A DNA stretch of 35,229 nucleotides from Candidatus Nomurabacteria bacterium (GTDB lineage: Bacteria; Patescibacteriota; Minisyncoccia; Phycocordibacterales; UBA9973), in NCBI GenBank assembly GCA_943359475.1, contig CALRHK010000006.1:1-35229 (forward strand). The letters are read 5' to 3'. Below, in pieces: positions 4,851 through 28,548 of this stretch; the first letter of the stretch is position 1; each line of letters starts with the position of its first letter. Made by a program: the position numbers and the translations under genes. The notes under the pieces are model-generated. The model saw nothing but the letters and a program-made list of their open reading frames with translations, was not told the origin of the DNA and searched no databases.

Positions 4851-4862
4851 AGGTACGTCTCT

Positions 4863-4891
4863 AAAAAACCCAAGCAGTGCTTGGGTTTTTT
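4863..4891. terminator. Intrinsic terminator
   Basis: AAAAAACCCAAGC-AGT-GCTTGGGTTTTTT. Confidence 0.9.
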
Positions 4892-4933
4892 AGTTTCTTG
4901 AAAAAGTATTTTTCTTATCCACAGGCGGAACAC

Positions 4934-17958: not shown

Positions 17959-18120
17959 ATGAGTTATAACGACGAGGAAATTGATTCACAATCAGAAGAA
18001 GACTTCGATGGATCAAATCCACTTAATGATGCGTTTCTAGATGACGACCTTGGTCTAGAGGCCGATGATGTTGCTCTTGATCTCTCTGATGATGAAGAGG
18101 AGGACGAAGAGATGTACTAA
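17959..18120 (+). CDS. Small very acidic protein (53 aa), hypothetical
   Basis: MSYNDEEIDSQSEEDFDGSNPLNDAFLDDDLGLEADDVALDLSDDEEEDEEMY*, followed directly by an intrinsic terminator; not in the supplied ORF track. Confidence 0.6.
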   Translation: MSYNDEEIDSQSEEDFDGSNPLNDAFLDDDLGLEADDVALDLSDDEEEDEEMY

Positions 18121-18149
18121 AATAAAACACCCCCACGGGGTGTTTTATT
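18121..18149. terminator. Bidirectional intrinsic terminator
   Basis: AATAAAACACCCC-CAC-GGGGTGTTTTATT between convergent genes; overlaps the tyrS stop codon. Confidence 0.9.
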
Positions 18150-19500
18150 TTGTCTCGATTTTTATAAAACGATGCTTTCCAATTTTATATACTGCGTTCT
18201 CAGCAGGTGCAAGCGGATCTTCGATTTTATTACCTGTAGTAAGGTTTGTAACCGCACCGCCCTCAATAAGACGACGCCATTCTGTTTTTGAGGCAATAAT
18301 TTCTTTTTCAATAAGTATCTCGGCGAGCACTCCGGTGTATTCAATAGTTTCTACATCATCGGGTATTTCTTTTTTTTGAAATTTGGTAACAAAATCATTT
18401 TCCGCACTCACCGCTGCTCCTTCTCCATGATAGAGTGCGACAATCTCATGCGCGAGGCGCATTTTTGCGTCACGAGGATTGAGTGTACCCTTCTTCATTT
18501 TCTCGAGCATTTCTTCTACCTCATCACTTGGAGTATAGGTGCAGAGTTCAAAATAACTTCCAAGCACAGCATCGGGAATAGACATTACCTTCCCAAACAT
18601 ATCTGTAGGTATATCGGTTACACCAATATAATTATCAAGACTTTTTGACATTTTTTCTTTACCATCAAGACCCGGAAGAATCGAAAAGGCGAGCACTGCC
18701 TGTGGAACTTGCTTGTTGAGGCGCATCACATCACGTCCCATGAGCATATTGAATGTTTGATCACTACCACCAACTTCAAGATCGCAAGCACCATAGATAG
18801 TTGCGAGGAGAGTCGAGTCAATACCTTGGAGGACTGGGTACATCATTTCATGCATATACAGTTCGTTACCACTTGCAAGTCGATCTTGAAAAAGGTCACG
18901 CTCTATCAAACGGGCATGGGTAATATGTCGGAGCGTAGCGAGTACTCGTGAAAATGAAACCGAATGTACAACTGGTCGCTTAAGGTGTGTGTATTGCATT
19001 CGTGTTTCGTTGTAGAGTACTGCTTTTCCTACAAATGAGTTTGGGTCAATTTGTTTCCCTTCGTACTCAATTGTAGTACCTTTTCCTGGAGCAATATCTG
19101 CAACATCGAGAAACCAATCTGAATTTTTTATCCAGGTAAATACTTTTTCGTCTGTGAGAAGAATTTTACCAACCTGTTCAAGGTATGTGTGCATGTTTTT
19201 TTCAATTTCTTCTTGGGCTAGTTCTGGACGAACCTTACTTTTACCAGTTGGGTCACCAATCATAGTCGTATAGTCGCCAATTAAAAAAACTACCTTACAA
19301 CCAAGATCTTGGAATTTCCTGAGTTTGCGCAACACCACAGCATGTCCAAGATGGAGATCGGGTCGAGTTGGATCAACTCCAAATTTAATTACGATTTGGT
19401 TTGGGTTTTCGATGAGTTTTTTGCGGAAGAGCCCCTCTGGGTCAATAAACTCACTCACTCCCCGACTGAGTAATTCATCTAATTCTTTTTCTTTCGTCAT
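18145..19500 (-). CDS. tyrS: Tyrosyl-tRNA synthetase
   Basis: KFGVDPTRPDLHLGHAVVLRKL (HIGH-type), GSDQTFNMLMGRD, KEKMSKSLDNYI (KMSKS), C-terminal S4-like domain. Confidence 0.95.
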   Translation of the reverse strand: MTKEKELDELLSRGVSEFIDPEGLFRKKLIENPNQIVIKFGVDPTRPDLHLGHAVVLRKLRKFQDLGCKVVFLIGDYTTMIGDPTGKSKVRPELAQEEIEKNMHTYLEQVGKILLTDEKVFTWIKNSDWFLDVADIAPGKGTTIEYEGKQIDPNSFVGKAVLYNETRMQYTHLKRPVVHSVSFSRVLATLRHITHARLIERDLFQDRLASGNELYMHEMMYPVLQGIDSTLLATIYGACDLEVGGSDQTFNMLMGRDVMRLNKQVPQAVLAFSILPGLDGKEKMSKSLDNYIGVTDIPTDMFGKVMSIPDAVLGSYFELCTYTPSDEVEEMLEKMKKGTLNPRDAKMRLAHEIVALYHGEGAAVSAENDFVTKFQKKEIPDDVETIEYTGVLAEILIEKEIIASKTEWRRLIEGGAVTNLTTGNKIEDPLAPAENAVYKIGKHRFIKIETK

Positions 19501-19596: not shown

Positions 19597-22119
19597 ATGA
19601 AAAAAATTTCATTTAAGGAAATAGTGCGCCGTCTACCTAAAAAACCTGAAAAACACCTTATTAAAAATGCTTTTTTGCTTGGTGGGGCAACTTTGCTTTT
19701 TATTGGCGGGGCGCTCTTTATATGGCTTGCGACAATACAAATTCCTGACTTTAAAACATTTGATGAGCGCAAAGTCGCAAAATCAACAAAGATATATGAT
19801 CGCACGGGTCAAATTCCCCTCTACGACATCCATGAAAATGTAAAACGCACCGTGATACCCCTCGAAGAAATGGGTCAAAATATAAAAAACGCTACGATTG
19901 CCATTGAAGATGCTGATTTCTATCAACACAATGGTATTCGAATTAAATCAATCATTCGCGCGATATTTGCGAATATTACTTCAGTAAAAATTTCCCAAGG
20001 TGGTTCAACAATTAGCCAACAGGTAGTAAAGAGGACGCTTCTCTCTGATGAACAAACGTATACCAGAAAAATTAGAGAAGCAATTCTTACTTTAAAGCTT
20101 GAAAAAGCACTCACAAAAGATGAAATTTTAGCGATTTATCTCAATGAAGCTCCTTATGGAGGCACAGTATATGGCGTACAAGAAGCATCAAAAATGTATT
20201 TTAATAAAAATGCTAAGGATCTTACTCTTGCAGAATCTGCATACCTCGCCGCAATTACAAAAGGTCCTTCGTATTACTCACCCTATGGGAAACATCGATC
20301 TGAGCTCGAATCACGAAAAGATACTGTACTTATAAAAATGAAAGAGCAGGGTTATATTACCGACGAAGAATATACAACTGCACGAGCTGAGAAAGTAACC
20401 TTTCAGCCCGACCAACAAACAGGTATTAAAGCTCCCCACTTTGTCTTTTTTATAAAGCAATATTTAGAAGAGAAGTATGGAGTTGATATGGTTGCTTCTG
20501 GTGGACTCAAGGTAACAACAACACTTGATTATGACCTTCAACAAAAAGCGGAGAAAGCAATTACTGATCACATAACCCAAATTCAAAAAGACTACAACGG
20601 CTCAAATGCTGCCCTCGTTGCGATTGATCCAAAAACAGGACAAATACTTGCAATGGTTGGTTCACGAAACTATTTCGATAAAGCAATTGATGGTAACTTT
20701 AATGTTGCTACAGCTCAACGACAACCAGGATCCTCTTTTAAGCCTTTTGTATACGCAACTGCATTTGAAAAAGGATATACCCCTGAGACGGTTCTCTTTG
20801 ATGTACGAACAGAATTTAATGCTTCGTGTGACCCTTCTGCAACGAGCACAAAAGCAACTTGTTATAACCCTGATAACTTTGATAATGCATTTCGTGGCCC
20901 AATGATGCTTCGTGATGCGCTTGCTCAATCTATTAACATTCCCGCGATTAAGCTTCTCTATCTTGTTGGTGTGAAAGATGCGCTTAAAACAGCGCGTGAT
21001 ATGGGTATCAAAAGCCTTACTGACTCATCACGTTATGGTCTTACTCTTGTAATTGGAGGTGGGGAAGTCTCACTTTTAGATATGACAACTGCTTATAGTA
21101 CCTTTGCGGATACTGGTACCTATCATCCAAACAAAGGAATTCTTAAGGTTGAAGATGATCATGGTACTGTTCTTGAAGAATACGAAGATCAGGGAACTAC
21201 TGCACTCCCTGCAAATGTTGCCCTTACTATTTCAGATGTGCTTTCTGACAACAACGCTCGTATTCCAACATTTGGTGCAAATTCCCCACTTGTAGTTCCT
21301 GGATATGATGTTGCTGCTAAAACAGGTACCACAAATAATAATAAAGATGCGTGGACAATGGGATATTCTCCAAATCTTGCTGTAGGTGTTTGGGTAGGAA
21401 ATAACGATAATACTCCTATGAAAAAAGGTGGCTCTGCACTTGCGGGTCCTATTTGGAATCAATTTATGAGAAGTGCCCTTCCAAAATTTGAAAACACAAG
21501 CTTTGAGGCACCAGCACCAATTCAATCTGGTGATAAACCTGTCTTTCGTGGTATTTGGCAAGGGGGTGAAAGTTTTGTAATTGATACTATCTCTGGAAAA
21601 CTCGCAACAGATGCCACACCGAGTGAAACACGCAAAGAAATTGCGATTACAAACGTACACGATATTCTCTATTGGGTTGATAAAGATAATCCTACTGGTC
21701 CCGCACCAAGCAATCCTAGAAATGATTCACAATTTACCAATTGGGAAACTGCAGTGCAACGTTGGTGGTCAAGTCATTCACAAAATTATCCAGTTGTTAC
21801 TGCCTCACAAAAACCTACTAGTTACGATGATATACATATCGTCGGACAAAACCCTATACTCACCATACTTACTCCTTTACCTGGAAGTATTATTCCTTTA
21901 AATGGCTCAACAATGGTTTCTGTAAGTGTTTCAGGTCCTCGACCAATTACTCGCTATGACTATTTTATAAACAACGAATTTATTGGCACAAGTATAAACC
22001 CCTTCTTTACCCTCACGAGCGATGAACTACACTCTGTTGGTGAAAAAGAACTTCGTGTGGTTGTTTACGATACTGTTTATAACCAGGGTGAGAGTAGGAG
22101 TACTTTTTCTGTACAATAA
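19597..22119 (+). CDS. Class A penicillin-binding protein (PBP1A family) with C-terminal Ig-like domain
   Basis: GT51 motifs (IEDADFYQHNGI, GGSTISQQVVKRTLL), transpeptidase PGSSFKPFVYATAFE (SxxK), SIN (AQSINIPAIK), KTGTT; C-terminal ITRYDYFINNEFIGTS Ig-like. Confidence 0.96.
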   Translation: MKKISFKEIVRRLPKKPEKHLIKNAFLLGGATLLFIGGALFIWLATIQIPDFKTFDERKVAKSTKIYDRTGQIPLYDIHENVKRTVIPLEEMGQNIKNATIAIEDADFYQHNGIRIKSIIRAIFANITSVKISQGGSTISQQVVKRTLLSDEQTYTRKIREAILTLKLEKALTKDEILAIYLNEAPYGGTVYGVQEASKMYFNKNAKDLTLAESAYLAAITKGPSYYSPYGKHRSELESRKDTVLIKMKEQGYITDEEYTTARAEKVTFQPDQQTGIKAPHFVFFIKQYLEEKYGVDMVASGGLKVTTTLDYDLQQKAEKAITDHITQIQKDYNGSNAALVAIDPKTGQILAMVGSRNYFDKAIDGNFNVATAQRQPGSSFKPFVYATAFEKGYTPETVLFDVRTEFNASCDPSATSTKATCYNPDNFDNAFRGPMMLRDALAQSINIPAIKLLYLVGVKDALKTARDMGIKSLTDSSRYGLTLVIGGGEVSLLDMTTAYSTFADTGTYHPNKGILKVEDDHGTVLEEYEDQGTTALPANVALTISDVLSDNNARIPTFGANSPLVVPGYDVAAKTGTTNNNKDAWTMGYSPNLAVGVWVGNNDNTPMKKGGSALAGPIWNQFMRSALPKFENTSFEAPAPIQSGDKPVFRGIWQGGESFVIDTISGKLATDATPSETRKEIAITNVHDILYWVDKDNPTGPAPSNPRNDSQFTNWETAVQRWWSSHSQNYPVVTASQKPTSYDDIHIVGQNPILTILTPLPGSIIPLNGSTMVSVSVSGPRPITRYDYFINNEFIGTSINPFFTLTSDELHSVGEKELRVVVYDTVYNQGESRSTFSVQ

Positions 22120-22121
22120 CC

Positions 22122-22379
22122 TTACTTAAAATGGGTAATATGTGCTTGTGGTAAGTGTAATTTGATTTCATCTAACAAGAGCTCTTTTTTAAAAAAGAGC
22201 TCTTGTTTTTCTATAGGACTTAGTTTAAAAGAGATAATTCCATTCTTAACTATAATTGATTCAATAGGAATTTTCCTTTTTATTAACTTTGAAGTAATTT
22301 CACTAATTGACGTACGAACAGTCTCTTCTGAAACAATAATATTTTTATATTTTAACAGGAGATCTCCAACATTTTTCAT
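22122..22379 (-). CDS. Small protein downstream of dnaN, possibly DciA/DUF721-like
   Basis: 85 aa; one nt after the dnaN stop; IIVKNGIISFKLSPIEKQELFFKKELLLDEIKLHLPQAHITHFK resembles the C-terminal half of DUF721-type proteins by eye only. Confidence 0.5.
   Translation of the reverse strand: MKNVGDLLLKYKNIIVSEETVRTSISEITSKLIKRKIPIESIIVKNGIISFKLSPIEKQELFFKKELLLDEIKLHLPQAHITHFK
22174..22207. repeat. 34-bp perfect palindrome (no spacer) inside a CDS
   Basis: AACAAGAGCTCTTTTTT|AAAAAAGAGCTCTTGTT, followed on + by TTTCT; likely + strand terminator for the PBP gene. Confidence 0.95.
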
Positions 22380-22380
22380 A

Positions 22381-23478
22381 TTACCTATTCATTGGCATTA
22401 TAAGATACAAGAAAGAAGTATCATTTACCCCAGTAATAACCATCGCTTTTCCTTCACCGTGTGCACGAAGGACTACACTTTCTTTATTTATTGATTGAAA
22501 ACATTCAAAGAAATATTTGTAGTTAAAATTCATTTCTATTGAATCACCTTGAATAACACCCTCAATTCGCGCTGTTGTTTCACCAATGTCATTATTTTTA
22601 GCGAAGAGCGCTATATATTTATCTTTTGGTCGTGCAGTAAGAGTAATTTGATTGAATTTATCAGAAAAGACGTTTGAAACTTTTAATGCTTGGAGAATTT
22701 CTTGCTTTAATACTGTAATGGTAGTTATGGGTTCTTTTGGAATAATTTGTTTATAGTCTGGAAAAACTCCATCAATAATTCTTGAGGTAATGTATAAACC
22801 GCTCAAAACAAGCGCTAGTTGATTCTTTGAGAACTTAAGGAGTAACTCATCATTATCTTCCGGAAGAACCCTTAAAAGCTCAATAACGTTCTTGTAGGGG
22901 ATGATAAGTGATATACCTTCAGGTATTCCTTTTACCTTAAAACGTTTTTCCGCAAGCCGAAATGAATCAGTAGCAACAAATATTAAAAATTCACCCTCGC
23001 TATATACATACACGCTTGAAATTTCTGGTTTTATATCAGAAAATGACGCACTATAACAAACTGCTTTTACCCCTTCGGTAAATGTTTTATGAGGAATCAC
23101 AATTTCTTCACCTTCTATAAAAGGAATTGTTGGAAAATCTTCATGGTTTTGGGTCTTAAGGACAACCGTATTGGTCTTTGTTGTAATAGTGAGCGTATCA
23201 CCTTCTCCAACAAGGATTACGGTCTCATTTTTTGAAAGTGAAGAGAAAAATGCTGAAAGAATAATACCTTTCACAGCACAAACACCCTCCTTTTCTATTT
23301 TTGCAGGAATTTCTATTTCAAGCCCTAGACTTAAATTGGTTGCACGTAACTTAATAGTTTTTCCTGATGCAATACAAAGAATAGAACCTAGAATGGGTAG
23401 CGCTAAATTTTTACCTGTAATTCGATCTGCTCGAATGATTGCATCTTTAATTTTTTCACCCTGACATTCTGCTTTCAT
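22381..23478 (-). CDS. dnaN: DNA polymerase III beta subunit (sliding clamp)
   Basis: 365 aa three-domain clamp pattern; FSDIKPEISSVYVYSEGEFLIFVATDSFRLAEKRF; C-terminal YLIMPMNR. Confidence 0.96.
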   Translation of the reverse strand: MKAECQGEKIKDAIIRADRITGKNLALPILGSILCIASGKTIKLRATNLSLGLEIEIPAKIEKEGVCAVKGIILSAFFSSLSKNETVILVGEGDTLTITTKTNTVVLKTQNHEDFPTIPFIEGEEIVIPHKTFTEGVKAVCYSASFSDIKPEISSVYVYSEGEFLIFVATDSFRLAEKRFKVKGIPEGISLIIPYKNVIELLRVLPEDNDELLLKFSKNQLALVLSGLYITSRIIDGVFPDYKQIIPKEPITTITVLKQEILQALKVSNVFSDKFNQITLTARPKDKYIALFAKNNDIGETTARIEGVIQGDSIEMNFNYKYFFECFQSINKESVVLRAHGEGKAMVITGVNDTSFLYLIMPMNR

Positions 23479-23725
23479 AGTTATTAGTTATTCTTTTTCT
23501 TCTCTATATAAACCCTATTACTAATGTTAGCACTGTGGATATGTGTATAACTTTTTATAGTAATGTTTTAAACGACTTTTCTTATAAAGTTATACTACTT
23601 ACTGTGGATTATATATACTGATTTTTCATCTTTTTGGTTACTATTTTAAATATACCCTTTTTACTAAATATTCCCCACAAGTTTTCCATTGATTTTTGTA
23701 CACATATCCACAGACTTATCCACAC
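23479..23725. other. oriC: Candidate oriC (dnaA-dnaN intergenic region)
   Basis: AT-rich; exact TTATNCACA boxes at 23542-23550 (reverse) and 23716-23724; one-mismatch boxes at 23534-23542 (reverse), 23604-23612 (reverse), 23704-23712. Confidence 0.7.
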
Positions 23726-26753: not shown

Positions 26754-27221
26754 ATGAATGAAGAAATTAAAAAAATAATTGAAGAATTACTTTCTCGTAC
26801 CGCACTCACGTACGACGCTATTGATATGGTGGTCGCTGATGATGGTACAACATGGTGTATGGTAAAAAGCCAAGACTCAAAGCTCTTTATTGGTAAAAAT
26901 GGTGAAACACTCGAATCACTTAACCACCTCATTCGTAAGCTTATTGAACAGCGATTTCGAGACACACCACTTCCCTACCAAGTAGTACTTGATGTGAATG
27001 AATATCAAAAGAAAAAAGTGGACAATATTAAAGCAATCGCACATATGATGGCTGAGCGCGCACGCTTCTTTAAGGCAAGTGTTTCAGTTGATCCAATGAA
27101 TGCGTTTGAGAGAAAGATTATTCACACCTTTCTTGAAAACGCGAAGAACGTAAAAACAGAATCTGCTGGTTTGGGCCACGAACGTCACGTTGTCATTAAA
27201 TATGTAGACGATACTATATAA
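26754..27221 (+). CDS. khpB: KH/R3H RNA-binding protein (Jag/KhpB)
   Basis: KH-like FIGKNGETLESLNHLIRKL and C-terminal R3H region (MNAFERKIIHTFLENAKNVKTESAGLGHERHVVI); ATG at 26754. Confidence 0.92.
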   Translation: MNEEIKKIIEELLSRTALTYDAIDMVVADDGTTWCMVKSQDSKLFIGKNGETLESLNHLIRKLIEQRFRDTPLPYQVVLDVNEYQKKKVDNIKAIAHMMAERARFFKASVSVDPMNAFERKIIHTFLENAKNVKTESAGLGHERHVVIKYVDDTI

Positions 27222-27248
27222 AAAATGCCCCATTATGGGGCATTTTTT
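27220..27248. terminator. Bidirectional intrinsic terminator between convergent genes
   Basis: AAAAAATGCCCC-ATTAT-GGGGCATTTTTT. Confidence 0.92.
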
Positions 27249-28548
27249 ATTGTGCTGTAGAAAGTGAGAGTTGCCAGAGATTTTCTTTTGTTTTATCAAT
27301 GAAGTAAAGATGTGATTCGTCTGGGTCGAGTGCAAGATTTATAGCATCGAGACTCAATTTTTTATCTTTAAAAGGACTTTCAATAAAAACGGCAACTCCA
27401 GTTTTCGCATCAATTTTCCAGAAGGTATCCGTAAACGAAACTCTTCCTTGATACCAAATATCTGGATAGATTCCAGTAGGAATAGTATCTGGGACTGCGC
27501 AGATGACCCAAAGACTCGTTTTAGACCAGGTACATTTTTCTGGTAGGGTGTTTTTTGTAAGTGGAATTTTACTACCAGAAAGTACATCAAAGATATTCGA
27601 TTCAAATCCACCAGTAATTGATGTGCTATAGAGACTATATTTAACGCTCGGGCTTGTGTTCGTGGTGAGTCCAGAAATATTACCCATAAGACGCGAGAAG
27701 CTTTTTTTATTTGTATCGAGGAGGTATGCAAAACCTGGGGCAAGGCCGGAAGCTTTTGTAGTAAGTACTACAGTAGTAGCACTCACCCACTGTGGTAACC
27801 ACTCTGTAAATGCTGAATCAAACACTTTTGTCTTCTTCGTTCCATCTAACTCACTTACATTTCCCATAACACCAGAATCAAATGGAATAAGCGTAAAGAT
27901 CTTTTTTAAATCAGGACTTAGGGTAATTGCGAGTGTGTCGTCGGTCAAAAAAGTACCCTTCATTTCTGGAAACGACCCGTCTGCTTCTGGTGTTGGAAGT
28001 ATCCCCGAAAAGGTTTTTATTGTATGTCCATTTGTATCGAGATAACGATAGAGTGCTGTGCTTCCAGCCACAAGTGCTTCTTGTGCGCCGGGGAGTGTAG
28101 TATTGGCTACCTGCGCCTCACTCCCTCCGGGGAGTTCCCTCTCGAAAATGTGACCAGTCGCTTTTTCAATATAACGAATGAGTGAAATTTTAACGATACT
28201 TTTTTTAATACCAGTGCTTGTTGCTACAAGTGAAGCTGATTCTGTTACTGTTTTTTCTCCGGAAGTAAAACCGAAACCAGCAATAGGTGTTGTAGAAAGC
28301 TGTACGAGGGGGTCTACTTTTTCTACTACTGGTGGCAATGGTTCGCTCGTATCTGGTGTTGTACTGTCAGGCGGGGTGGTTGTATCGGTCGCCACAGGCT
28401 CTCCCCCTAAAGGAAAGAAGTCACGAAAGGCAACACCAATTGATTTGAGTGGTTCAGGTTGTGAAGCAATCGGCGTATTTGAGTAATACGCGTAGACGCC
28501 ACATACGAGAAGCACAATGATTGTTGAAATAATAAGTAGTTTTTTCAT
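27247..28548 (-). CDS. Membrane-anchored secreted protein, possible beta-propeller-like repeats
   Basis: 433 aa; N-terminal TM (LLIISTIIVLLVCGVYAYY), Pro/Thr-rich linker, then repeated short beta-strand/SxxDTxK-type segments. Confidence 0.6.
   Translation of the reverse strand: MKKLLIISTIIVLLVCGVYAYYSNTPIASQPEPLKSIGVAFRDFFPLGGEPVATDTTTPPDSTTPDTSEPLPPVVEKVDPLVQLSTTPIAGFGFTSGEKTVTESASLVATSTGIKKSIVKISLIRYIEKATGHIFERELPGGSEAQVANTTLPGAQEALVAGSTALYRYLDTNGHTIKTFSGILPTPEADGSFPEMKGTFLTDDTLAITLSPDLKKIFTLIPFDSGVMGNVSELDGTKKTKVFDSAFTEWLPQWVSATTVVLTTKASGLAPGFAYLLDTNKKSFSRLMGNISGLTTNTSPSVKYSLYSTSITGGFESNIFDVLSGSKIPLTKNTLPEKCTWSKTSLWVICAVPDTIPTGIYPDIWYQGRVSFTDTFWKIDAKTGVAVFIESPFKDKKLSLDAINLALDPDESHLYFIDKTKENLWQLSLSTAQ

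Follow-up and report, generated by a model that had tools for sequence, protein, structure and literature searches.

A 34-bp perfect palindrome within a conserved small gene downstream of dnaN is a probable terminator of the convergent penicillin-binding protein gene in a Candidatus Nomurabacteria genome

An intrinsic (rho-independent) terminator consists of a stable hairpin followed by a U-rich tail, and is found just after a stop codon. The bidirectional terminators of convergent genes described in E. coli and Zymomonas mobilis serve the 3' ends of both members of a pair, while the Rickettsia palindromic elements are palindromes that are inserted in coding sequences. Intrinsic terminators of convergent genes have been documented and are often bidirectional (PMC7566282), and bidirectional terminators between convergent genes are likewise attributed to Ju et al. 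(2019) in the passage of PMC10937400 that cites that work. In the reduced genome of Rickettsia, by contrast, convergent genes can fail to terminate, with antisense read-through as the result (PMC3027695); such read-through would be the expected alternative at loci that have no hairpin. We searched the literature for work on Rho and transcription termination in the Candidate Phyla Radiation and found no paper.

Here we analyzed a palindrome that resembles each of these systems in part. It lies in a 35,229-nucleotide stretch of a Candidatus Nomurabacteria contig (CALRHK010000006.1), referred to below as the window. Like an intrinsic terminator, the palindrome provides a stable hairpin and a U-rich tail just after a stop codon, in this case that of a class A penicillin-binding protein (PBP) gene, but the convergent gene contains all of it within its coding sequence, and the stem is A+T-rich and perfectly symmetric. 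As with the bidirectional terminators, it would serve the 3' end of a convergent pair; it is, however, predicted to act mainly one way and is not intergenic. The likeness to the Rickettsia palindromic elements is that the palindrome is read in frame as protein, the difference being that it is present in a single copy and that the protein carries no insertion. The kind of element is ordinary, and the unusual part is its placement inside the coding sequence of the facing gene.

Table 1. Features at the junction of the dnaN operon and the PBP gene (window coordinates)
Feature	Position	Strand	Remarks
Class A penicillin-binding protein (PBP) gene	19597..22119	+	Transgly 2.5e-60, Transpeptidase 3.4e-25; palindrome is the presumed end of its transcript
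Putative terminator hairpin in the PBP transcript (34-bp palindrome)	22174..22207	+	15-bp stem, UUAA loop; RNA MFE -19.5 kcal/mol
Putative U tract, PBP direction	22199..22212	+	Overlaps the outer stem; T-tail scores in the text
Host ORF, 85 aa, between dnaN and the PBP gene	22122..22379	-	Conserved; 60 aligned family members; possibly DciA-like
dnaN	22381..23478	-	Upstream of the host ORF, same presumed operon
dnaA	23726..25075	-	dnaA-dnaN spacer with DnaA-box-like TTATCCACA at 23716

The ORF that hosts the palindrome is, by sequence comparison, a real gene. A homologous ORF of ~80-100 aa was found downstream of dnaN in 60 of 61 loci (the window and 60 relatives), usually facing the same PBP. 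The dnaN of the window shared up to 58% identity with its nearest named contigs, which were mostly Candidatus Nomurabacteria, plus other Patescibacteria. No confident Pfam or NCBIfam family was found for the host ORF, and the window protein gave no match to Pfam DciA PF05258 (DUF721). The DciA profile did weakly match two of 56 members of the host-ORF family (best E 0.015), and the top fold match of the host ORF model (pLDDT 74.6) was V. cholerae DciA, at a non-significant E of 0.14; that the protein is possibly a DciA-like helicase loader is only a lead.

The palindrome itself, AACAAGAGCTCTTTTTTAAAAAAGAGCTCTTGTT, was confirmed to be its own reverse complement, perfect and spacerless over 34 bp, as claimed in the first-pass annotation. 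The next-longest perfect palindrome in the window measured 14 bp, and in 100 third-order Markov sequences of window length the longest palindrome averaged 15.6 bp, the highest being 26 bp. The setting previously described, i.e., in a minus-strand coding sequence by dnaN and after the PBP stop, was also borne out. The element starts 54 nt downstream of the PBP stop, placing the hairpin a short way 3' of that stop on the same strand, and lies entirely within the convergent host ORF, the two stop codons being 2 bp apart. Its minus-strand codons read (K)QELFFKKELL(L), which agrees with the peptide QELFFKKELLL annotated at first, and fall on a conserved stretch of the host protein (consensus KNEIxLKK; KQELFFKKELL in the window). 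Across the 60 aligned members, the host ORF aligned without an insertion at the palindrome; given this, and the lack of a second copy, a mobile palindromic insertion was rejected.

The palindrome could be a by-product of the protein: near-palindromic, A+T-rich codons readily encode the conserved amphipathic sequence E-[IL]-x-x-K-K-[ED]-x-[IL], and chance would have made the palindrome perfect. The conservation of the motif is in keeping with this, as are the near-palindromic nature of GAA-ATT-TTT-TTA-AAA-AAA-GAA and, in one relative (L047), a hairpin on this motif that is independent of the present one. However, when the peptide was fixed and the codon usage of the window was applied, the probability of a 34-bp palindrome was about 5e-5, and that of a palindrome of at least 30 bp was 1.3e-4; the peptide alone therefore does not explain the palindrome. 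The palindrome axis coincides with a codon boundary in the minus-strand frame, and the less common codons GAG (0.28), CTC (0.31) and TTG (0.07) are used where they pair. Furthermore, the hairpins of other relatives occur at other peptides, and hairpins at this junction are enriched above synonymous recoding (see below). We consider a by-product of the protein very unlikely.

In the PBP transcript, the palindrome is predicted to fold into the hairpin given in Table 1, with a z of -6.6 when compared with shuffles. Five of the 15 stem pairs are G-C; GAGCTC is the G+C-rich segment, A+T pairs prevail at the base of the full stem, and the outer stem takes up the first Ts of the tail. On the plus strand, the tails are TTTCTATAGG after the full stem and TTGTTTTTCT after the inner, GAGCTC-closed stem, as compared with AGATGAAATC and TTGTTAGATG, respectively, on the minus strand. 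T-tail scores were 3.07 (plus) vs 0.22 (minus) for the full hairpin, and 3.74 (plus) vs 2.63 (minus) for the inner hairpin. Tail asymmetry thus favours the PBP direction, with the inner hairpin keeping a modest minus tail: the earlier claim of a T run on the plus strand that is lacking on the minus strand stands for the full hairpin, but is not absolute. Between positions 20000 and 25000, the palindrome, with 15 pairs, was the only strong terminator-like site; four others had 5-7 pairs.

Convergent genes elsewhere in the genome were sampled in the window and twelve 15-kb stretches, which together held 28 convergent pairs. Most convergent gaps of ~20-50 bp were filled by a symmetric terminator (e.g., window 27218-27250, L129 12414-12440 and L133 5126-5166). 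The hairpin at 27218-27250 covers both stop codons of its pair and, with a T tail in each direction, represents the bidirectional type that is standard for this genome. Further long near-palindromic hairpins were seen at gene ends at 4861-4893 and 18119-18151 of the window. At another, nearly abutting convergent pair of the same genome (L127 2771-2791), the end of the plus-strand ORF shares sequence with a hairpin, AGCTGTCAC...GTGACAGCT. An apparent hidden terminator at L127 9066-9413 was left out of the count, as the ORF that holds it was judged unlikely to be a real gene.

This prevalence of symmetric terminators at convergent pairs is in line with a second possibility, namely that the palindrome is bidirectional and also ends or attenuates dnaN-operon transcripts, shortening the host ORF message in a fraction of them. 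The inner hairpin (GAGCTC...GAGCTC, -11.8 kcal/mol) has a minus tail, TTGTT, and in the 120 nt beyond the host ORF stop we detected no further terminator in the minus direction. A stop at this point, however, would cost the protein its last ~17-28 codons, the minus-direction hairpin sits inside translated mRNA, and the minus tail of the full hairpin scores poorly. A bidirectional function is, in our view, unlikely.

We instead propose, with considerable confidence, that the palindrome is an intrinsic terminator of the PBP gene, stored in the opposing coding strand. Polymerase that runs past the PBP stop would transcribe the palindrome, the RNA would fold into the 15-bp hairpin, and the UUGUUUUUCU tract that follows would release the PBP transcript; in this transcript the hairpin would be beyond the ribosome. 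Because the two stops leave no intergenic space, the terminator would have been written into the coding strand of the opposing gene, with a codon choice that allows in-register pairing of GAG/CTC, TTT/AAA and CAA/TTG. From the tails and the position of the fold we infer that termination is directional. In the minus direction there is little or no U tract and the hairpin falls ~53 nt within the translated part of the mRNA; ribosomes would unfold it there, such that dnaN-operon transcripts should pass. This effect of the ribosome on the hairpin rests on transcription-translation coupling. The arrangement may be of benefit by sparing the small ORF, dnaN and dnaA antisense transcription from the PBP gene, in a genome in which no Rho was detected.

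A protein-binding site near oriC was offered as an alternative in the first-pass annotation; it would be a DNA-level dyad bound by a regulator or by a replication or partition protein. The perfect symmetry of the DNA, its two GAGCTC half-sites and its distance of ~1.3-1.5 kb to the dnaA-dnaN spacer, the presumed origin, would suit such a site. Yet the genome-wide search for other copies proposed at that stage found the 34-mer only once in the 648-kb genome, allowing up to 3 mismatches, and there was no second genomic copy of the GAGCTC half-site pattern. Moreover, in a 147-genome family set the 34-mer was absent from all 146 other genomes despite the dnaA-dnaN-ORF-PBP order being kept in relatives, and the hairpins that relatives carry in the region are of unrelated sequence. 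Since the 34-mer is not conserved, it fits a terminator rather than a protein-binding site, and we regard the latter as highly improbable. It had also been suggested that conservation of the palindrome be compared with that of the encoded peptide, with loss of the former and retention of the latter arguing against a terminator. Such loss is a poor refutation here: the relatives examined are other genera, several of them with a replacement hairpin.

To compare the junction across the family, regions downstream of dnaN were taken from 100 relatives drawn from the 147-genome search, and the small ORF with a convergent PBP was recognisable in the window and 79 of these. In the second batch of 40 loci, a recognisable small ORF after dnaN was missing from 20 (e.g., L087, L092, L094, L098, L103, L106 and L120), and in L113 an ABC-transporter-like ATPase ORF followed dnaN in its place. 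To count as strong, a hairpin had to reach at least the stability of -9 kcal/mol, carry a T tail and lie no more than 120 nt past the PBP stop. Where the convergent gap was 21-150 bp, 14 of 16 loci possessed a strong hairpin and T tail. Where it was 20 bp or less, these were found in 14 of 60 loci, ten of them having the hairpin wholly inside the small ORF, and the remaining 46 were without by the same criterion. A strong hairpin at the abutting PBP/small-ORF junction is frequent, not universal, and a terminator there is not obligatory. Three shifted control positions per locus yielded no strong hairpin with a T tail.

Synonymous recoding, in which codons are taken as independent, provided a null for the 3'-terminal 120 nt of the small ORF: across the 60 abutting loci, ten with a strong PBP-direction hairpin and T tail were observed vs 1.5 expected (binomial approximation P about 2e-6, which is overstated since the loci are phylogenetically related). 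Two PBP-internal control regions gave none, vs 0.4-0.5 expected. The number of independent hairpin events is below ten given the relatedness of the loci, with L072, L088 and L097 carrying similar hairpins at the same place. Hairpin position and peptide vary between loci, that of L047 being at the motif used in the window and others further on. It is a type of element, in roughly one place, that recurs, rather than a particular sequence. Taken together, the excess in abutting loci, the hairpins in most wider gaps and the lack of sequence conservation support, at the level of sequence, the one-way PBP terminator that was first suggested.

The Rho RNA-binding domain was not found in this genome, whereas it was matched in nine of 14 control genomes. 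When a full-length Rho model was run against 60 relatives, nothing exceeded the cut-off; the sub-threshold matches appear, from open-frame length and paired arrangement, to be F1-ATPase subunits. These searches suggest a lineage without Rho, in which intrinsic terminators would consequently carry the termination load. It is conceivable, although we put this a little short of an even chance, that abutting convergent genes in this lineage of Patescibacteria with no detected Rho repeatedly evolve intrinsic terminators in the opposing coding sequence, constraining the codons, and perhaps the amino acids, of a replication-operon protein.

Where convergent genes abut, a compact genome has no room for terminators. 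This locus and its relatives offer a measurable case of dual coding, with a protein code on one strand and a stop signal on the other. If true, as judged by 3'-end mapping, the finding would aid terminator prediction, which is usually biased to intergenic DNA, and would help to account for codon choices in compact genomes.
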